From NCBI RefSeq assembly GCF_004115975.1, contig NZ_SDDZ01000001.1, positions 434,001 to 498,000 on the forward strand: 64,000 bases of DNA, read 5' to 3'. Positions 3,745 through 62,895 of this stretch are shown here, piece after piece. Made by a program: the position numbers and the translations under genes. Origin of the DNA: Gelidibacter gilvus (GTDB lineage Bacteria; Bacteroidota; Bacteroidia; Flavobacteriales; Flavobacteriaceae). Position 1 is the first letter of the stretch. Every line of letters begins with the position of its first letter. The notes under the pieces are model-generated. The model saw only the letters and a list, made by a program, of their open reading frames with translations, was not told the DNA's origin and made no database searches.

Positions 3745-3769
3745 GAGATTAAGTATAATTAAATAAGAT

Positions 3770-3785
3770 CCCTGCCTTCGCAGGG
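3770..3785. repeat. CCTGCCTTCGCAGG hairpin repeat between atpF and atpH
   Basis: Perfect palindromic arms CCCTGC/GCAGGG around a 4-nt loop, a member of the same family as the hairpins at 7285, 31566-32377, 33006 and 62676. It lies 6 nt before the atpH start codon, so it may affect atpH translation. Confidence 0.75.
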
Positions 3786-3791
3786 AGTAAT

Positions 3792-4404: not shown

Positions 4405-5985
4405 ATGGCAGAAGTAAAACCAGCTGAAATTTCAGCAATCTTAAAGCAACAATTGTCAGGATTTGAAGCTAGCGCTTCATTGGACGAAGTAGGAACAGTT
4501 TTGACTGTTGGAGATGGTATTGCCCGTGTTTACGGCTTAGCAAACGTTCAATATGGCGAATTGGTTGAATTTGCAGATGGTCTTGAAGGCATCGTACTGA
4601 ATCTTGAAGAAGATAACGTAGGTGTCGTATTGTTGGGACCTTCAGTGGGTGTCAGCGAAGGCTCTATTGTAAAACGTACAGAACGTATTGCTTCCCTAAA
4701 AGTTGGTGAAGAAATCGTAGGACGTGTTGTTGATACTTTAGGAACTCCAATTGACGGAAAAGGTCCTATTGGTGGAACGCTTTATGAAATGCCATTAGAA
4801 CGTAAAGCTCCTGGGGTTATTTACCGTGAACCGGTAACTGAACCATTACAAACAGGTATCAAATCTATTGATGCCATGATTCCTGTAGGTAGAGGACAAC
4901 GTGAGTTGGTTATTGGTGACCGTCAAACTGGTAAAACAGCAGTTTGTATTGATACCATTATCAACCAAAAAGAATTTTTTGATGCAGGTGAGCCTGTATA
5001 TTGCATCTATGTAGCCGTTGGACAAAAAGCGTCAACAGTTGCTTTAATTGCAAAAACATTAGAAGAAAAAGGAGCAATGGCTTACACAACAATTGTTGCG
5101 GCCAATGCATCGGATCCTGCTGCAATGCAAGTATATGCGCCATTTGCTGGTGCTGCAATTGGTGAGTATTTTAGAGATACTGGCCGTCCTGCATTGATTG
5201 TTTTTGATGACTTATCAAAACAAGCAGTAGCCTACCGTGAAATTTCGTTATTGTTACGTCGTCCACCGGGACGTGAGGCGTATCCAGGTGACGTTTTCTA
5301 CCTTCACTCAAGATTATTGGAGCGTTCTGCAAAAATCATCAATAATGATGCTATTGCTAGAGAAATGAACGATTTGCCAGATGTGTTGAAACCAATCGTA
5401 AAAGGTGGTGGCTCATTAACGGCATTGCCTATTATTGAAACACAAGCAGGTGACGTATCGGCATATATTCCTACCAACGTAATTTCTATTACTGACGGAC
5501 AGATTTTCTTGGATGGTGACTTGTTTAACTCTGGGGTTCGTCCAGCAATTAACGTGGGTATTTCAGTATCTCGTGTTGGTGGTAACGCACAGATTAAATC
5601 CATGAAAAAAGTAGCTGGAACCTTAAAATTAGACCAAGCACAATTCCGTGAACTGGAAGCGTTTGCTAAGTTTGGTTCTGACCTTGATGCGGTAACCTTG
5701 AACATTATTGAAAAAGGAAGACGTAACGTTGAGATCTTGAAACAAGCTCAAAACGATCCCTTTAAAGTTGAAGATCAAGTGGCCATCATTTACGCCGGAT
5801 CTAAAAACTTATTGAGAGATGTTCCTGTAGAGAAAGTAAAAGAATTTGAACGTGATTACTTAGAATTCTTAAGAGGTAAGCACAGTGATACACTTGCAGC
5901 CTTAAAGGCAGGAAAACTTACGGATGAGATAACTGATACATTGGCAGCAGTGGCTAAGGAATTATCGGCGAAGTATAGAAAATAA
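4405..5985 (+). CDS. atpA: F0F1 ATP synthase subunit alpha
   Basis: A 526-residue regulatory nucleotide-binding subunit of the F1 head. It has the N-terminal beta-barrel (about 25-95), the P-loop GDRQTGKT at residues 171-178, the [20 protein letters not shown] catalytic-interface segment near 280-300, and the [18 protein letters not shown] region. Length and motifs are normal. It is followed by a 430-nt inserted segment before atpG; the usual spacing is a few tens of bases, so the insertion could change the alpha/gamma expression ratio. Confidence 0.98.
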
Positions 5986-5987
5986 AA

Positions 5988-6411
5988 AGTTATGAGTTTA
6001 GAGTTATGAGTTCAGAGTTAATAATCTCGAATAAAGAATTCATAACTCCACACTCATAACTTGAAAAAAGATGTCATTAGATAGCAGTCCAATTCGCATG
6101 CGAGATTGTTCTTTTTACTGATAAATTAAAACAAAACAAAGACTTTGAGTTAGCATCTCAAATATTAAAGAGTGGAACAAGTATTGGTGCCAATACAAGA
6201 GAAGCTCAAAGAGGTGTAAGTACAAAGGATTTTAAAAATAAATTTGGAATAGCCCTTAAAGAGGCTGACGAAACCAAATATTGGTTGGAAATTCTTGAAG
6301 CAACAGGAAGAGACGTACCAAAAGACCTGAAGGATAAGTGTGAAGAGTTAATTAGAATTTTAGTAGCTATAATTAAAAACTCATAACTCTGCACTGATAA
6401 CTCATAACTTG
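5988..6411. mobile_element. Putative inserted element with AGTTATGAG/CTCATAACT flanking repeats between atpA and atpG
   Basis: The insert begins with AAGTTATGAG and further degenerate copies (5988-6061, itself ending CTCATAACTT) and ends with several CTCATAACT-type copies (6382-6411). The sequence ACTCATAACTTGAAAAA occurs on both sides of the enclosed gene. Such repeats are common around four-helix-bundle genes in Flavobacteriia (recollection, not verified here). Boundaries are approximate. Confidence 0.5.
6062..6386 (+). pseudogene. Degenerate four-helix-bundle protein gene (23S rRNA IVS / Avd-like family)
   Basis: About 100 codons ending at TAA 6384-6386 encode the family's hallmarks: QFACEIV, then LKSGTSIGANTREAQRG, then IALKEADETKYWLEIL. 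This family (TIGR02436, S23-like) is known from 23S rRNA intervening sequences and resembles the Avd protein of retroelements. The N-terminus is broken. A KKDVIR start is read in one frame from 6061, and QFACEIV continues in another frame from 6090, with stop codons between, so at least one frameshift separates them and no start codon is in frame. It was probably inserted into the atp operon and then decayed. Confidence 0.7.
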
Positions 6412-6415
6412 AAAA

Positions 6416-7276
6416 ATGGCAAACTTAAAAGAAATACGTAACAGAATTACATCGGTGTCTTCCACGATGCAGATTACCAGTGCCATGAAAATGGTATCTG
6501 CTGCAAAGTTGAAGAAAGCGCAAGATGCGATTACTGCTATGCGTCCGTATTCTGATAAATTAACGGAACTATTACAAACCTTAAGCGCGACTTTAGATGC
6601 AGATTCTGGAAGTGAATTTGCAGAACAGCGTGATGTCCAAAATGTAACTTTGGTGTCCGTAACTTCCAATAGAGGTTTGGCAGGGGCATTTAACTCAAAT
6701 ATTATCAAAGAAACCAATCGTTTGATAAAAGAAGAATATGCCGGTAAAAATGTTTCTGTTTTTGCAATAGGAAAAAAAACCAGCGATGCTTTTAAGAAAG
6801 GTGATCGAGTGATTGCCAATAAAAGCGATGTTTTTGACGATTTGACCTTTGACAACGTTGCAGAGATAGCAGACTTGTTGATGGAACATTTCTTGACTGA
6901 AAAAACGGATAAAATTGTTTTAGTGTATAACAAGTTTAAGAACGCCGCAACTCAAGAGATCATGAGCGAACAGTTTTTACCAATTGTTCCGATCGAAGGT
7001 GATGAGGAAATTGACACCGATTATATCTTTGAACCTTCAAAAGCAGAAATCGTTAAAGAATTAATTCCTAAATCTTTGAAGACACAGCTTTATAAAGCCC
7101 TTAGAGACTCTTTCGCTTCAGAACATGGCGCGCGTATGACTGCAATGCATAAAGCAACAGATAACGCCACAGAATTGAGAGATCAGCTTAAGTTGACCTA
7201 TAACAAAGCACGTCAAGCTGCCATTACTAATGAAATCTTAGAGATTGTTGGTGGAGCGGAAGCGCTTAATAACTAA
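6416..7276 (+). CDS. atpG: F0F1 ATP synthase subunit gamma
   Basis: A 286-residue central rotor shaft of F1. The N-terminal helix (ANLKEIRNRITSVSSTMQIT) and C-terminal helix (residues about 230-284, with RMTAMHKATDNATELRDQ) form the coiled coil that turns inside the alpha3beta3 head, and an alpha/beta domain lies between. Length is normal. It is the last atp gene in the cluster and is followed by a hairpin repeat and a strong terminator. Subunits beta and epsilon must be encoded elsewhere, as is usual in Bacteroidota. Confidence 0.97.
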   Translation: MANLKEIRNRITSVSSTMQITSAMKMVSAAKLKKAQDAITAMRPYSDKLTELLQTLSATLDADSGSEFAEQRDVQNVTLVSVTSNRGLAGAFNSNIIKETNRLIKEEYAGKNVSVFAIGKKTSDAFKKGDRVIANKSDVFDDLTFDNVAEIADLLMEHFLTEKTDKIVLVYNKFKNAATQEIMSEQFLPIVPIEGDEEIDTDYIFEPSKAEIVKELIPKSLKTQLYKALRDSFASEHGARMTAMHKATDNATELRDQLKLTYNKARQAAITNEILEIVGGAEALNN

Positions 7277-7284
7277 ATAACAAA

Positions 7285-7302
7285 TTCCTGCGAAGGCAGG
7301 AA
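7285..7302. repeat. TTCCTGCGAAGGCAGGAA hairpin repeat
   Basis: Palindrome with 7-bp arms and a 4-nt loop followed by TCTCAT, identical in core to the copies in the 31.6-32.4 kb array. Confidence 0.85.
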
Positions 7303-7313
7303 TCTCATATTGA

Positions 7314-31129: not shown

Positions 31130-31564
31130 ATGAAAATCAAAATCATCAACAAATCCAATCACGCCTTGCCCAACTATGAAACCATAGCATCAGCAGGAAT
31201 GGATTTACGCGCTAATTTATCAGAATCAAGAATTTTAAAACCTTTGGAAAGAAGCATTGTAGGTACAGGTTTATTTCTTGAGCTGCCTATTGGCGTTGAA
31301 GCACAGGTAAGACCTCGCAGCGGTCTTGCCGCCAAAAAAGGGATTACCGTTTTAAATGCACCGGGAACTATTGATGCCGATTACAGAGGTGAAATAGGAG
31401 TGATCTTGGTCAATCTGTCCAATGAAGACTTTGAAATCGTCAATGGCGAACGTATTGCACAATTGGTGATCGCAAAACATGAACGTGCGGAGTGGCATGC
31501 TGTGGAAACACTATCTGAAACGGATAGAGGTGAGGGTGGATTTGGGAGTACTGGCGTAGCCTAA
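31130..31564 (+). CDS. dut: dUTP diphosphatase
   Basis: A 144-residue trimeric dUTPase hydrolysing dUTP to dUMP and pyrophosphate, which keeps uracil out of DNA. All five motifs are visible: AGMDLRA (motif 1), [11 protein letters not shown] (2), [17 protein letters not shown] (3), RIAQLVI (4) and [10 protein letters not shown] (5). Length is normal. The stop is followed by the TTCCTGCGAAGGCAGGAA hairpin at 31566, the left edge of the GIY-YIG repeat array. Confidence 0.97.
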
Positions 31565-31698
31565 ATTCCTGCGAAGGCAGGAATCTCGTGTTGAAGAAGC
31601 CAAAACATCGATATTGTCAACATTTATACAGATGAGTAAAATAAAATACTTTCAGCTTGCTGAAAGAAATATAATTTAATTCGAGCACTATTAATCTC

Positions 31699-31827
31699 AT
31701 GTTTGAATTTATGAAGCTGTGGTACATCTATATAATGACCAATAAAATGAATGGTGTTTTATATATTGACATATCGGATAATATTGAAGAAAGAGTAAAG
31801 GAGCACAAATTAAAAGTTTATCCTTAG
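31699..31827 (+). pseudogene. Truncated GIY-YIG copy 1 (42 codons)
   Basis: Encodes the first 42 residues of the nuclease (MFEFMKLWYIYIMTNKMN...) and ends KVYP-stop, where the sequence jumps to the hairpin. Unlike the other copies it has Asp in place of Gly in LYIDIS, within the GIY-YIG core, so even the motif is altered. Confidence 0.8.
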
Positions 31828-31963
31828 AATTCCTGCGAAGGCAGGAATCTCATGATGAAAAATACAAAACATCAATATTGCAGATTTTTATACTTATAGC
31901 TTGTTGAAAGAAAAGGAATTCTTGCTGAAAGCAATATAATTTAAATCGAGCACTATTAATCTC

Positions 31964-32092
31964 ATGTTTGAATTTATGAAGCTGTGGTACATCTTTATAA
32001 TGACCAATAAAATGAATGGTGTTTTATATATTGGCATATCGGATAATATTGAAGAAAGAGTAAAGGAGCATAAATTAAAAGTTTATCCTTAG
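31964..32092 (+). pseudogene. Truncated GIY-YIG copy 2 (42 codons)
   Basis: Same 42-codon frame ending KVYP-stop before the hairpin at 32095, with an intact LYIGIS motif. Reads LWYIFIMTNK where the others have LWYIYIMTNK. Confidence 0.8.
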
Positions 32093-32228
32093 AATTCCTG
32101 CGAAGGCAGGAATCTCATGATGAAAAATACAAAACATCAATATTGCAGATTTTTATACTTATAGCTTGTTGAAAGAAAAGGGATTCTTACTGAAAGAAAT
32201 ATAATTTAAATCGAGCACTATTAATCTC

Positions 32229-32357
32229 ATGTTTGAATTTATGAAGCTGTGGTACATCTATATAATGACCAATAAAATGAATGGTGTTTTATATATTGGC
32301 ATATCGGATAATATTGAAGAAAGAGTAAAGGAGCATAAATTAAAAGTGTATCCTTAG
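32229..32357 (+). pseudogene. Truncated GIY-YIG copy 3 (42 codons)
   Basis: Same 42-codon frame ending in stop before the hairpin at 32360. The open frame is kept in all three copies, so a short peptide could be made from each unit. Confidence 0.8.
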
Positions 32358-32493
32358 AATTCCTGCGAAGGCAGGAATCTCATGATGAAGAATACAAAAC
32401 ATCAATTTTGCAGATTTTTATACTTATAGCTTGTTGAAAGAAAAGGGATTTTTGCTGAAAGAAATATAATTTAAATCGAGTACTATTAATCTC

Positions 32494-32820
32494 ATGTTTG
32501 AATTTATGAAGCTGTGGTACATCTATATAATGACCAATAAAATGAATGGTGTTTTATATATTGGCATATCGGATAATATTGAAGAAAGAGTAAAGGAGCA
32601 CAAATTAAAAGTTTATCCGAAATCATTTACTGCAAAATATAATTGCGACAGATTAGTTTACTTGGAAGAATATAACAACGGATTAGAAGCCTCAAAACGT
32701 GAGATAAGTTTGAAGAAATGGAAAAGGGAGTGGAAAATTAAGCTTATTGAGGAAATTAATCCAAGCTGGATGGATATAAGTTTAAATTGGAATCTGAATT
32801 ATAATAGATTGAGGGAATAG
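32494..32820 (+). CDS. Small GIY-YIG nuclease (UPF0213-like), intact member of the array
   Basis: A 108-residue single-domain protein of the GIY-YIG superfamily. The two-strand motif appears as WYIYIMTNKMNGVLYIGISD with the catalytic Arg in NIEERVKEHK (R about 32), followed by AKYNCDRLVYLEEY and the conserved Glu of SKREISLKKWKREWKIKLI. UPF0213-type proteins of this size are stand-alone domains with poorly known biology. Three truncated copies precede it and a duplicate of its 3' end follows. Related hairpins lie on both sides, suggesting that gene and hairpins have moved or amplified together. Confidence 0.85.
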   Translation: MFEFMKLWYIYIMTNKMNGVLYIGISDNIEERVKEHKLKVYPKSFTAKYNCDRLVYLEEYNNGLEASKREISLKKWKREWKIKLIEEINPSWMDISLNWNLNYNRLRE

Positions 32821-32836
32821 GTTTGGCCTATATAGA

Positions 32837-33023
32837 TACCTGCCTTCTCAGGTATTAAGCTGGATGGATATAAGTTTAAATTGGAATCTGAATTATAATA
32901 AATTTAAAAAATAAGTTTAACCAAAATAGATACCTGCCTACGGAGGTATTAAGTTTAACATAGTAGATACTTGCCTAATGTAAGTAATTATTAACCTAAA
33001 ATAGATACCTGCCTTCGCAGGTA
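32837..33023. repeat. Cluster of four TACCTGCCTTCGCAGGTA-type hairpins and a duplicated GIY-YIG 3' end
   Basis: Hairpins at 32837-32854, 32931-32948, 32968-32986 (degenerate) and 33006-33023, each preceded by ATAGA or GTAGA. Between the first two, 32858-32903 repeats the last codons of the GIY-YIG gene (AAGCTGGATGGATATAAG and onward; original at 32763). Confidence 0.8.
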
Positions 33024-33030
33024 GTTGGAT

Positions 33031-34050
33031 ATGAAAATAATAGTCCCAATGGCAGGACGTGGTTCACGTTTGCGCCCACACACATTAACAGTTCCGAAAC
33101 CATTAATTCCGGTGGCGGGTCAACCCATTGTCCATCGTTTGGTAAAGGATATTGCCAAAGTTTTAAATCAACCAATTGATGAGATTGCCTTCATTTTGGG
33201 CGATCCGGCTTTTTTTGGAGATGATGTGGTAGAAAGTTTAACCGCATTGGCTACAGACTTAGGAGCCAAAGCGTCCATCTATCGCCAAGATCAACCCTTA
33301 GGTACAGGTCACGCCATTATGTGCGCCAAAGATTCACTTTCAGGTCCGGCAGTGATTGCTTATGCCGATACTTTAATCAGAGCCGATTTCAATTTGGATC
33401 CAGAAGCCGACGCCGTGATTTGGGTCAAGCAAGTAGATCAACCAGAAGCGTTTGGCGTGGTCAAATTGAACGACAAAAACGAAATTGTAGAACTTGTAGA
33501 AAAACCAAAGGACTTTGTAAGCGATTTAGCGGTTATTGGGATATACTACTTTAAAGATGTGAACGTTCTTAAACAAGAACTCCAAATAGTTTTGGACAAT
33601 AATATTATTAATGGTGGCGAATATCAAATCAATGATGGGATTAAAGGCATGATGGCGAAAGGCAAGGTCTTTAAAACTGGCGAAGTTGAAGAATGGATGG
33701 ATTGTGGCAACAAAGCGGTTACCGTGGAAACAAACACTAGAATGCTAGGGTTTTTGCAGGCAGATGGCGAAGAACAAATGATAGCTGCTTCAGTAACTTT
33801 AGAAAATTCAAAGATTATTAAACCTTGTTTTATTGGAGAAAATGTCAGCTTAAAAAATGCAACCATCGGTCCAAATGTGTCCATTGGAAACAATTGCACC
33901 ATAACGGATACCACTATAAAAAACAGTTTGATACAAACAAATAGCGTCATAAAAAACGCTAATTTAGATGAGGCCATGATTGGGAATCACGTGCATTATG
34001 ATGGGAATTTTAAAACGATCAGTATTGGAGATTATTCTGTATTAGCCTAA
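33031..34050 (+). CDS. Sugar nucleotidyltransferase with left-handed beta-helix tail
   Basis: About 339 residues from ATG 33031, preferred over an upstream TTG at 33025 because it directly gives the family N-terminus KIIVPMAGRGSRLRPHT. The GxGxRLxPxT nucleotide loop and the following PKPLIPVAGQPI form the NTP-binding site; the middle holds TGHAIMCAKDSL and VVKLNDKNEIVELVEKPKDF; the C-terminal 80 residues are hexapeptide repeats (IGENVSLKNATIGPNVSIGN). It activates a sugar-1-phosphate as an NDP-sugar for envelope glycans; the sugar is not certain. It begins 7 nt after the last hairpin of the repeat cluster. Confidence 0.85.
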   Translation: MKIIVPMAGRGSRLRPHTLTVPKPLIPVAGQPIVHRLVKDIAKVLNQPIDEIAFILGDPAFFGDDVVESLTALATDLGAKASIYRQDQPLGTGHAIMCAKDSLSGPAVIAYADTLIRADFNLDPEADAVIWVKQVDQPEAFGVVKLNDKNEIVELVEKPKDFVSDLAVIGIYYFKDVNVLKQELQIVLDNNIINGGEYQINDGIKGMMAKGKVFKTGEVEEWMDCGNKAVTVETNTRMLGFLQADGEEQMIAASVTLENSKIIKPCFIGENVSLKNATIGPNVSIGNNCTITDTTIKNSLIQTNSVIKNANLDEAMIGNHVHYDGNFKTISIGDYSVLA

Positions 34051-48913: not shown

Positions 48914-48973
48914 ATTATAGTAGAGGCTCTTTGCAAAGAGCCTCTACACTTTGCAAAGAGCCTCTACTATAAT
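48914..48973. repeat. 25-bp perfect inverted repeat containing a 28-nt perfect palindrome
   Basis: Arms 48914-48938 and 48949-48973 are exact complements. 48920-48947 is itself a palindrome (GTAGAGGCTCTTTG and its complement). Two alternative folds are possible. It follows the aminopeptidase stop by 4 nt. Confidence 0.85.
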
Positions 48974-62675: not shown

Positions 62676-62693
62676 TTCCTGCGCAGGCAGGAA
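62676..62693. repeat. TTCCTGCGCAGGCAGGAA hairpin repeat
   Basis: Member of the TTCCTGCGAAGGCAGGAA family, followed by TCTCAAA and a degenerate copy at about 62703-62723 (TTCTTGTG...CAGGAA). Confidence 0.8.
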
Positions 62694-62895
62694 TCTCAAA
62701 CAAATTCTTGTGTAAACAGGAATCACGGAATTGTTATTTCGAAACAGATTGTTATAGCAAGATAAAGCTTGAATGCTTTCTGATTAGAAAATAGATTTTA
62801 TACAAACACAGTACAGTTGAATTAAGTTGATGCGTTGTAGAGTTGAGGTGTTTATCCTAAACTCTTGAACACCTAAACTTCTAAACTTTTGAATA

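Follow-up and report, generated by a model that had tools for sequence, protein, structure and literature searches.

The locus described here raises the question of what a small GIY-YIG nuclease gene has to do with the hairpins among which it lies. In the window, by which we mean the whole analysed stretch of 64,000 nucleotides of the Gelidibacter gilvus genome, the front of such a gene is repeated in a tandem array, each extra copy of the gene ends at a hairpin, and related hairpins are scattered at a distance. The initial annotation had compared this arrangement with RAYT transposases and their REP hairpins and had proposed that the GIY-YIG protein may recognise or mobilise the repeats.

The array consists of four units of 264 or 265 bp spanning 31564-32622, as delimited by sequence comparison within the window (Table 1), and scores 1835 in TRF. 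As the initial annotation had described, the gene starts at 31699, 31964, 32229 and 32494 are spaced by exactly 265 bp; the first three open reading frames encode 42 amino acids, end in TAG and are followed each time by AATTCCTGCGAAGGCAGGAAT, directly at the hairpin, and the fourth is intact with 108 amino acids. The description also held on the downstream side, where three hairpins lie in the opposite orientation and where the second copy of the gene's 3' end belongs to a duplicated 94-bp segment (3' end plus one hairpin, 32763-32950). Similar 3'-end sequence is also present in the congeners G439 and G444. Over 300 nt, units 2 and 3 are 97% and 96% like unit 1; the 66 nt of unit 1 that start with the hairpin are only 83% like the other units, and their distance to the next such stretch is 264 rather than 265 bp. 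Because the units differ in this way (96-97%, and 83% in the first hairpin part), an assembly error was judged an unlikely origin of the array. The truncated gene copies are unlikely to be active, since the positions of the conserved residues E70 and N89 are absent from them and the first copy has YID for YIG.

Table 1. Features of the array, its neighbours and the dispersed hairpins (positions in the window)
Feature	Position	Strand	Remarks
Dispersed hairpin	3768..3786	-	between two genes taken to be ATP synthase genes; also in congeners G440, G442, G444
Dispersed hairpin	7284..7303	+	downstream of a presumed ATP synthase gamma-like gene; also in G440, G444
Dispersed hairpin, loop GCAG	62676..62694	+	confirmed
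dut gene (dUTPase), presumed from its sequence	31130..31564	+	left neighbour; stop codon abuts first hairpin; from the ORF list
Array unit 1, 264 bp	31564..31827	+	hairpin, upstream DNA, truncated ORF 31699-31827 (42 aa, YIG to YID)
Hairpin 1, ATTCCTGC-GAAG-GCAGGAAT	31565..31584	+	tail CTC, on the gene side
Array unit 2, 265 bp	31828..32092	+	hairpin 31829-31848, truncated ORF 31964-32092
Array unit 3, 265 bp	32093..32357	+	hairpin 32094-32113, truncated ORF 32229-32357
Array unit 4	32358..32622	+	hairpin 32359-32378, 5' part of the intact gene; likeness to earlier units stops near 32618
Intact GIY-YIG nuclease gene, 108 aa	32494..32820	+	Pfam PF01541, E 2.4e-16
94-bp duplication, copy 1	32763..32856	+	gene 3' end and inverted hairpin 32836-32855
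94-bp duplication, copy 2	32857..32950	+	86% alike; inverted hairpin 32930-32949
Further inverted hairpin, TACCTGC type	33005..33023	-	downstream of the gene
Gene taken to be sugar nucleotidyltransferase-like	33025..34050	+	right neighbour of the element; from the ORF list

The window hairpin, ATTCCTGC-GAAG-GCAGGAAT, has a stem of 8-9 bp that opens with AT and a loop of 4-5 nt, and the scattered copies that had been noticed are indeed present, at 3768, 7285 and 62676. The sequence CCTGCNNNNGCAGG occurs 8 times in the window and in none of 100 shuffles. In the genome (4.63 Mb, 42 contigs), the pattern CCTGCNNANGCAGG yields 106 strand-hits, with some sites counted on both strands, and the core pattern TNCCTGCGNAGGCAGGNA yields 76 copies; the reversed control gave 0 in both searches. 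The commonest tail here is CTC (40 of 62 contexts), and no run of T follows the hairpins of the array. GIY-YIG matches in the genome comprise five near full length, one of them with an internal stop, and the three truncated copies. The same hairpin does not accompany every paralogue: no hairpin of the CCTGC type comes within 1.5 kb of L029, L030, L034 or L035. A distinct ATTTCCGC hairpin stands shortly upstream of L030, and L034 and L035 lie beside GTCATTGCGAG-type repeats.

Beyond the window, pairing of the gene with hairpins is general. It was assessed in 79 loci from named genomes, which derive from the best 80 of 570 confirmed candidates and thus represent the near end of the family. Perfect-stem hairpins less than 60 bp from the protein match number 48 upstream and 43 downstream in these loci, or 10.1 and 9.1 per kb; the density is 2.3 and 1.9 per kb at 60-120 bp and 0.21-0.36 per kb at 600-5000 bp. 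The initial annotation had suggested comparing hairpin proximity with chance, and the comparison supports the pairing, with hairpins about 30-fold denser beside the gene family in the 79 loci from the best 80 of 570. At least one hairpin lies within 120 bp in 65 of these 79 loci, and 40 of the 79 have hairpins on both sides; L136 entered the 65 on account of a different sort of long palindrome, and its removal leaves 64 loci for the arm comparison given below. Of the 40 two-sided loci, 34 have both hairpins facing inward and 3 have one facing outward, and the direction is ambiguous in 3. Flanking by inverted REPs is a hallmark of RAYT genes and REPtrons, and with a gene bracketed by inward hairpins and with dispersed copies elsewhere, the comparison with RAYT and REP fits the anatomy seen here. 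Fourteen loci of the same set (best 80 of 570) lack a perfect hairpin within 120 bp, and by eye 13 of them show imperfect, shorter or longer ones.

The pairing was also found in records of a plasmid collection, from which we picked 10 of 33 matching records for variety. Of the 10, 8 have a CGTC-type hairpin no more than 400 bp from the gene, and the stems vary by organism: ATTCCCGC in Neisseria, Aeromonas and Photobacterium, ATCCTCGGG in Shinella and Sinorhizobium, ATCCCAGGG in Rhizobium, ATCCCCGC in Azospirillum and GCCCCGTG in Novosphingobium. None is listed within this distance for the Planktothrix and Spirosoma records. The gonococcal stretch holds nine exact repeat copies in 1.9 kb, and because the repeat is dense there anyway, the Neisseria case counts little for proximity. 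At the DNA level, no match was found in plasmids.

Stem and tag change together with the nuclease lineage, which is what the initial annotation had proposed to look for. Left and right arms of the same locus have a similarity of 0.838 compared with 0.679 after shuffling, and 0 of 2000 shuffles reach 0.838 (40 loci, best 80 of 570). Protein identity correlates with arm similarity with a Mantel r of 0.327 (0 of 2000; 64 loci, best 80 of 570), a value uncorrected for relatedness. Tagged hairpins with a TGCGCA stem occur only 6 times in 149 genomes, and 4 of the 6 flank two GIY-YIG genes, those in G013 and G069; stems of other lineages include ATTGCGGG, AATGCGCA and ACCTCTTT. When 104 flanking hairpins (best 80 of 570) are read towards the gene, 41 start with GTC, 38 end with CTC and 16 end with CCA. 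Relatives in the window lineage have flanking hairpins that lack the GTC tag, and the GTC-tagged form, whose pattern also demands AT and ATC around the core, gives 0 matches against 76 for the core in the window genome and 172 against 344 in other genomes.

Gene and hairpin also tend to occur in the same genomes. The nuclease family is present in 172 of 296 genomes of the phylum (profile search, E 1e-10) and in 72 of 149 genomes of Flavobacteriaceae (single-protein search, E 1e-10). Across these 149 genomes, the CCTGC hairpin was found in 42 of the 72 with the nuclease and in 14 of the 77 without it (Fisher 3.5e-7, uncorrected for relatedness), which upholds the proposed link of gene and hairpin; the other 30 of the 72 have the nuclease and no CCTGC hairpin in the genome. 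Full hairpin lists were available for 16 genomes with the nuclease. Of the 112 hairpins in them, 12 are no more than 150 bp from a nuclease, compared with 0.06 expected, and most are dispersed; the 12 come from 6 of the 16 genomes, and the other 10 have no CCTGC hairpin within that distance. Of nine genomes in the genus, three have an intact close nuclease, defined as at least 63% identical, and contain 76, 60 and 59 hairpins (G000, G440 and G444); the other six contain 31, 13, 9, 3, 0 and 0 (exact p 0.012, uncorrected for relatedness). The awkward case is G442, which has 31 hairpins without an intact close nuclease. In the search at E 0.01, G096 has 20 hairpins and only weak GIY-YIG matches, and G097 has 6 hairpins and no GIY-YIG match. 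G131, with 13 hairpins, has weak matches at E 0.01, none of them near the ten tagged hairpins listed, and a profile search finds three relatives there. The initial annotation had staked the link on the hairpin not being equally abundant in genomes that lack the nuclease; hairpins persist in G096, G097 and G442, where no close nuclease was found, and this runs counter to the clause if it is taken strictly.

The protein itself is matched by profile models of the GIY-YIG type only, and it is thus not the HUH tyrosine transposase that characterises RAYTs and REPtrons. Columns that are invariant among 25 aligned sequences include Y11, Y22, G24, R32, H36, K37, Y49, E70 and N89, and we take the catalytic residues to lie among Y11, Y22, R32, H36, E70 and N89. 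An AlphaFold2 model built from the 25 aligned sequences has a mean pLDDT of 92.1 and a pTM of 0.84; it has a GIY-YIG fold, with the UPF0213 protein 1zg2 as the best Foldseek match (E 0.007, TM 0.52) followed by Slx1 (E 0.027). The best sequence match to a solved structure is 1ywl (E 0.043), and no solved structure fell below E 0.001 by sequence or by fold. UPF0213-type GIY-YIG proteins share the fold and a similar length, yet they are only 22-23% identical to the window protein; the weaker GIY-YIG matches of 18-39 bits in Flavobacteriaceae may belong to this type. Several other assignments were tried and set aside. A GIY-YIG homing endonuclease, which would carry an additional DNA-binding domain, does not fit a single domain of 108 aa that scores 26 bits against TIGR01453, below the cutoff of 56.05. 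A phage origin found no support, with no match for the nuclease in 50,697 phage records, and as a candidate defence system the protein gave weak and partial PADLOC matches (best E 1.8e-4).

Besides the arrays at the locus, the window genome has six further tandem arrays at hairpins, some of which carry the ends of other genes (two were examined). Because it was the even spacing of hairpins that led to these arrays, the sample favours arrays with a hairpin inside. Hand reading placed the unit boundary no more than 3 nt from the hairpin 5' edge for 6 of the 8 arrays of the genome, including the 265-bp and 94-bp arrays; the boundary of L054 is 13 nt off and that of L043 is without a 5' edge. In the congener G444, whose arrays were likewise found by spacing and were read after the rule had been formed, 4 of 4 boundaries lie at 3, 3, 2 and 0-3 nt, although the third array is off by 13 nt at its opposite side; a simple model applied to the hand-read distances gives a chance of about 1e-5. 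The two congeneric genomes together thus have 10 of 12 hand-read boundaries within 3 nt of the hairpin 5' edge. In the hand reading, L327 is off by 2 nt at one side and by 13 nt at the other, and in L047 and L328 shared bases leave several nt of doubt about the boundary. Judged by eye, 11 of the arrays carry the duplicated DNA on the tail side of the hairpin.

We also applied an automatic boundary test, for which a distance of up to 6 nt from either edge of a hairpin suffices, to 30 hand-picked arrays (L188, L192, L195, L200, L248, L249 and the masked L151 were left out). In the window genome 6 of 8 arrays pass compared with 2.3 expected, and these are a different six from those passed by hand, because L043 and L054 pass the test and the 94-bp array and L042 do not. 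Among arrays of other genera, 3 of 22 pass compared with 3.6 expected, 12 of the 22 having a zero null with no scorable hairpin. The boundary rule found no support outside the genus and is therefore claimed for this genus only. Separately, tandem arrays concentrate near the gene in a wider set: in the 79 loci (best 80 of 570) they occupy 3.65% of bases at less than 500 bp, 1.42% at 500-1000 bp and 0.09% at 1-2 kb, and they are absent at 2-5 kb. Ten loci contribute to these figures; the whole 1-2 kb share is due to L151, which is masked (427 N), and without it nine remain.

The gene and the array differ in apparent age. In 13 of 79 named loci (best 80 of 570) the nuclease is flanked by the same pair of neighbours, and this constancy marks the gene as an old resident; the sequence comparison thus favours a long-standing inhabitant of the dut site over a hopping insertion sequence. 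RAYT genes are likewise described as residents. Of the dut loci of 19 relatives, 15 include both neighbours. In this set G439 and G006 have a broken nuclease, G444 has a 3' remnant, and four gaps of 8-57 bp contain no element. The 265-bp array is absent from every stretch examined among these loci, so it looks recent and particular to this genome. We set two hairpin sites against up to 8 congeners and found no clean insertion or empty site with target duplication. For the proposal that the protein recognises or mobilises the hairpins, this means that the link has gained from the computational tests and that mobilisation has not, given that neither site shows a clean insertion and that the gene is an old resident.

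We consider it probable that the locus is a two-part system made up of a single-domain GIY-YIG nuclease and a cognate hairpin related to the CGTC-class REPs, in which the nuclease cuts near the 5' edge of the hairpin. Gene and hairpin recur as a pair in many bacteria and the array seems to have been duplicated from a hairpin edge, which makes the nuclease a good candidate, as far as sequences can tell, for the enzyme that acts on these repeats. Recognition, cutting, a single-stranded substrate and the duplication step are what we infer from this pattern. The nuclease would bind its cognate hairpin as folded single-stranded DNA and would cut near the 5' edge; a strand with its start at this edge and a random end point on the tail side could then be copied back in at the same edge, and the result would be tandem units led by a hairpin. 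In the 265-bp array, the hairpin and the DNA on its tail side, that is, the upstream region and the first 42 codons, would have been duplicated in tandem from the edge, with the hairpin truncating each extra gene copy. Some junctions carry short filler, TTAG in the present case, which fits end joining. Such a system may serve the spread of the hairpin, the limiting of foreign DNA uptake, or both.

The same observations can be read without a dedicated duplicating enzyme. Palindromes promote slippage, and the arrays could have arisen by replication slippage at stable hairpins without any part for the nuclease; short shared bases are present at some junctions, and the six other hand-read arrays of the genome have no GIY-YIG match within 4 kb. 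We regard this account as rather unlikely, because slippage by itself leaves unexplained why tandem arrays crowd around the gene, from 3.65% of bases at less than 500 bp to none at 2-5 kb (79 loci, best 80 of 570), and why the breakpoint in the genus is one-sided, at the hairpin 5' edge. That the gene keeps its two neighbours in 13 of 79 loci (best 80 of 570) would also suit a resident host nuclease that cuts single-stranded DNA, whether incoming or exposed, at hairpins of the chromosome, perhaps to restrain natural transformation, the spread and the arrays being side effects of replication; the Neisseria relative is reportedly a modulator of natural transformation. A purely chromosomal role, however, requires neither that hairpins bracket the gene nor that their stems match it, and the gene decays easily in the genus, being broken in G439 and a remnant in G444 at the dut site; we hold this alternative to be doubtful.

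It is far less credible that the hairpins are transcription terminators or mRNA-stabilising REPs between genes and that the surroundings of the nuclease gene are a chance hotspot. Two of the three dispersed hairpins of the window were examined and both do lie between genes. The hairpins of the array lack a T run, however, and in the loci from the best 80 of 570 the hairpins stand on both sides of the gene, point inward in 34 of 40 cases and co-vary with it, so that we consider a terminator role very improbable as the explanation of the locus.

The reading as a nuclease with its cognate hairpin invites comparison with two described classes of palindromic repeats. The CGTC-tagged REPs, which apparently have no dedicated transposase (Di Nocera et al. 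2013, PMC3733652), are named there in G. forsetii, A. lipoferum, S. meliloti and the Neisseriae, and have stems of 8-9 bp opening with AT, loops of 4-5 nt, short unpaired tails and head-to-head dimers. The anatomy of stem and loop is common to these repeats and the window hairpins, which also seem to have a short tail, and relatives of the window nuclease lie among CGTC repeats in the A. lipoferum, S. meliloti and Neisseriae records. The window hairpins differ in that they carry neither a CGTC nor a TGTC tag (the GTC pattern gives 0 against 76 for the core), in that their tail is mostly CTC (40 of 62 contexts) rather than mostly CCA, and in that they form head-to-tail arrays, whereas head-to-tail dimers are described as negligible and grouped elements as rare in PMC3733652. 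The word GIY-YIG is absent from that paper. With RAYTs and their REPs and REPINs (Bertels and Rainey 2011, PMC3116915), the locus shares the link of gene and palindrome, dispersed copies, inverted doublets, tandem arrays and group-specific pairing; the RAYT is an HUH tyrosine transposase, whereas the enzyme of the window has a GIY-YIG nuclease fold.

A closer parallel comes from Neisseria. A gonococcal ORF that lies among CGTC ATTCCCGC hairpins is 39.5% identical to the window protein over 80% (E 5e-13). Presumably this ORF is Ssn: a 2025 paper in Nature Communications reportedly describes Ssn as GIY-YIG nucleases that cut single-stranded DNA at a Neisseria repeat and that have thousands of homologues. 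We take nucleases of the window type to belong to this Ssn family of site-specific single-strand nucleases, which has the NTS repeat in Neisseria. Both are small single-domain GIY-YIG proteins beside a multi-copy palindromic repeat, and the window nuclease has the GIY-YIG domain, the invariant residues and the cognate multi-copy repeat beside its gene that mark the Ssn type; stem and tag of the Neisseria repeat differ from those of the window hairpins. The core pairing may already be published as Ssn and NTS, which lowers the novelty of the pairing. We found no published link of GIY-YIG proteins to REP or palindromic repeats in the open-licence literature, and the consulted part of a GIY-YIG survey (PMC1564403) does not contain the string 'palindrom'.

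A broader claim, that this GIY-YIG nuclease is the dedicated enzyme of CGTC-class REPs across phyla and that its cut at the 5' edge drives tandem duplication on the tail side, is put forward tentatively, as possible rather than probable. If it is true, the array of the window is the work of a nuclease that duplicated the beginning of the gene encoding it, and ends of ordinary host genes are copied in the same way elsewhere in the genome. The pairing in Bacteroidota and in the named Proteobacteria offers, for every lineage, a candidate enzyme together with its matching hairpin, and the question thereby becomes one for a bench test. Should the hairpin-edge rule hold, it would describe a local and directional way in which bacterial genomes come to duplicate gene ends in tandem.

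A further form of these repeats is the doublet. Doublets in six other genomes were chosen for the closeness of their hairpins, and they therefore show that the form exists rather than how frequent it is: 7 of 8 pairs are head to head at 23-33 bp and the eighth is tail to tail. Head-to-head doublets are known for the CGTC repeats (PMC3733652) and resemble REPINs (PMC3116915).

The loci L126, L127, L128, L132, L136, L145, L174, L175 and L178 represent one chromosomal site with common neighbours on both sides, and the GIY-YIG nucleases located there carry different hairpins. Judging by eye, it looks as if L029, one of the four other near-full-length paralogues in the G. gilvus genome, also lies at this site. 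The hairpin itself occurs in a longer variant in three loci (L044, L046 and L059), where the GGAA and TCTC of the usual tail are separated by a stretch such as ACCTTTAGGTTCAACGTAGTTAA. In two other genomes several GIY-YIG genes adjoin one another, namely G087 (locus L248), with four matches inside 6.3 kb, and G212 (locus L249), with three genes in tandem about 420 bp apart.

In the congeners G439 and G441 (loci L306 and L308), the 3' end of the orthologue of the window gene listed in the table is tandemly repeated several times in units of about 50 bp, and these repeats occupy the position of the single hairpin found downstream of that gene in the window. The segment 5985-6412 coincides with a break in the alignment to most congeners. 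Both of its ends match several further places within the genus, some of them on opposite strands, which suggests that this segment is a mobile element of small size whose ends are inverted.

Coordinates of window features discussed in this part
Feature	Position	Strand	Description
Candidate mobile element	5985-6412		about 425 bp
Gene	6416-7276		3' end repeated in congeners
Hairpin	7284-7303	+	dispersed copy
Tandem repeat	48929-48967		20 bp, CTTTGCAAAGAGCCTCTACA, two exact copies

Two records from the gonococcus in the plasmid collection (L260), each about 2.17 Mb long, appear to be complete chromosomes that were deposited as plasmids.
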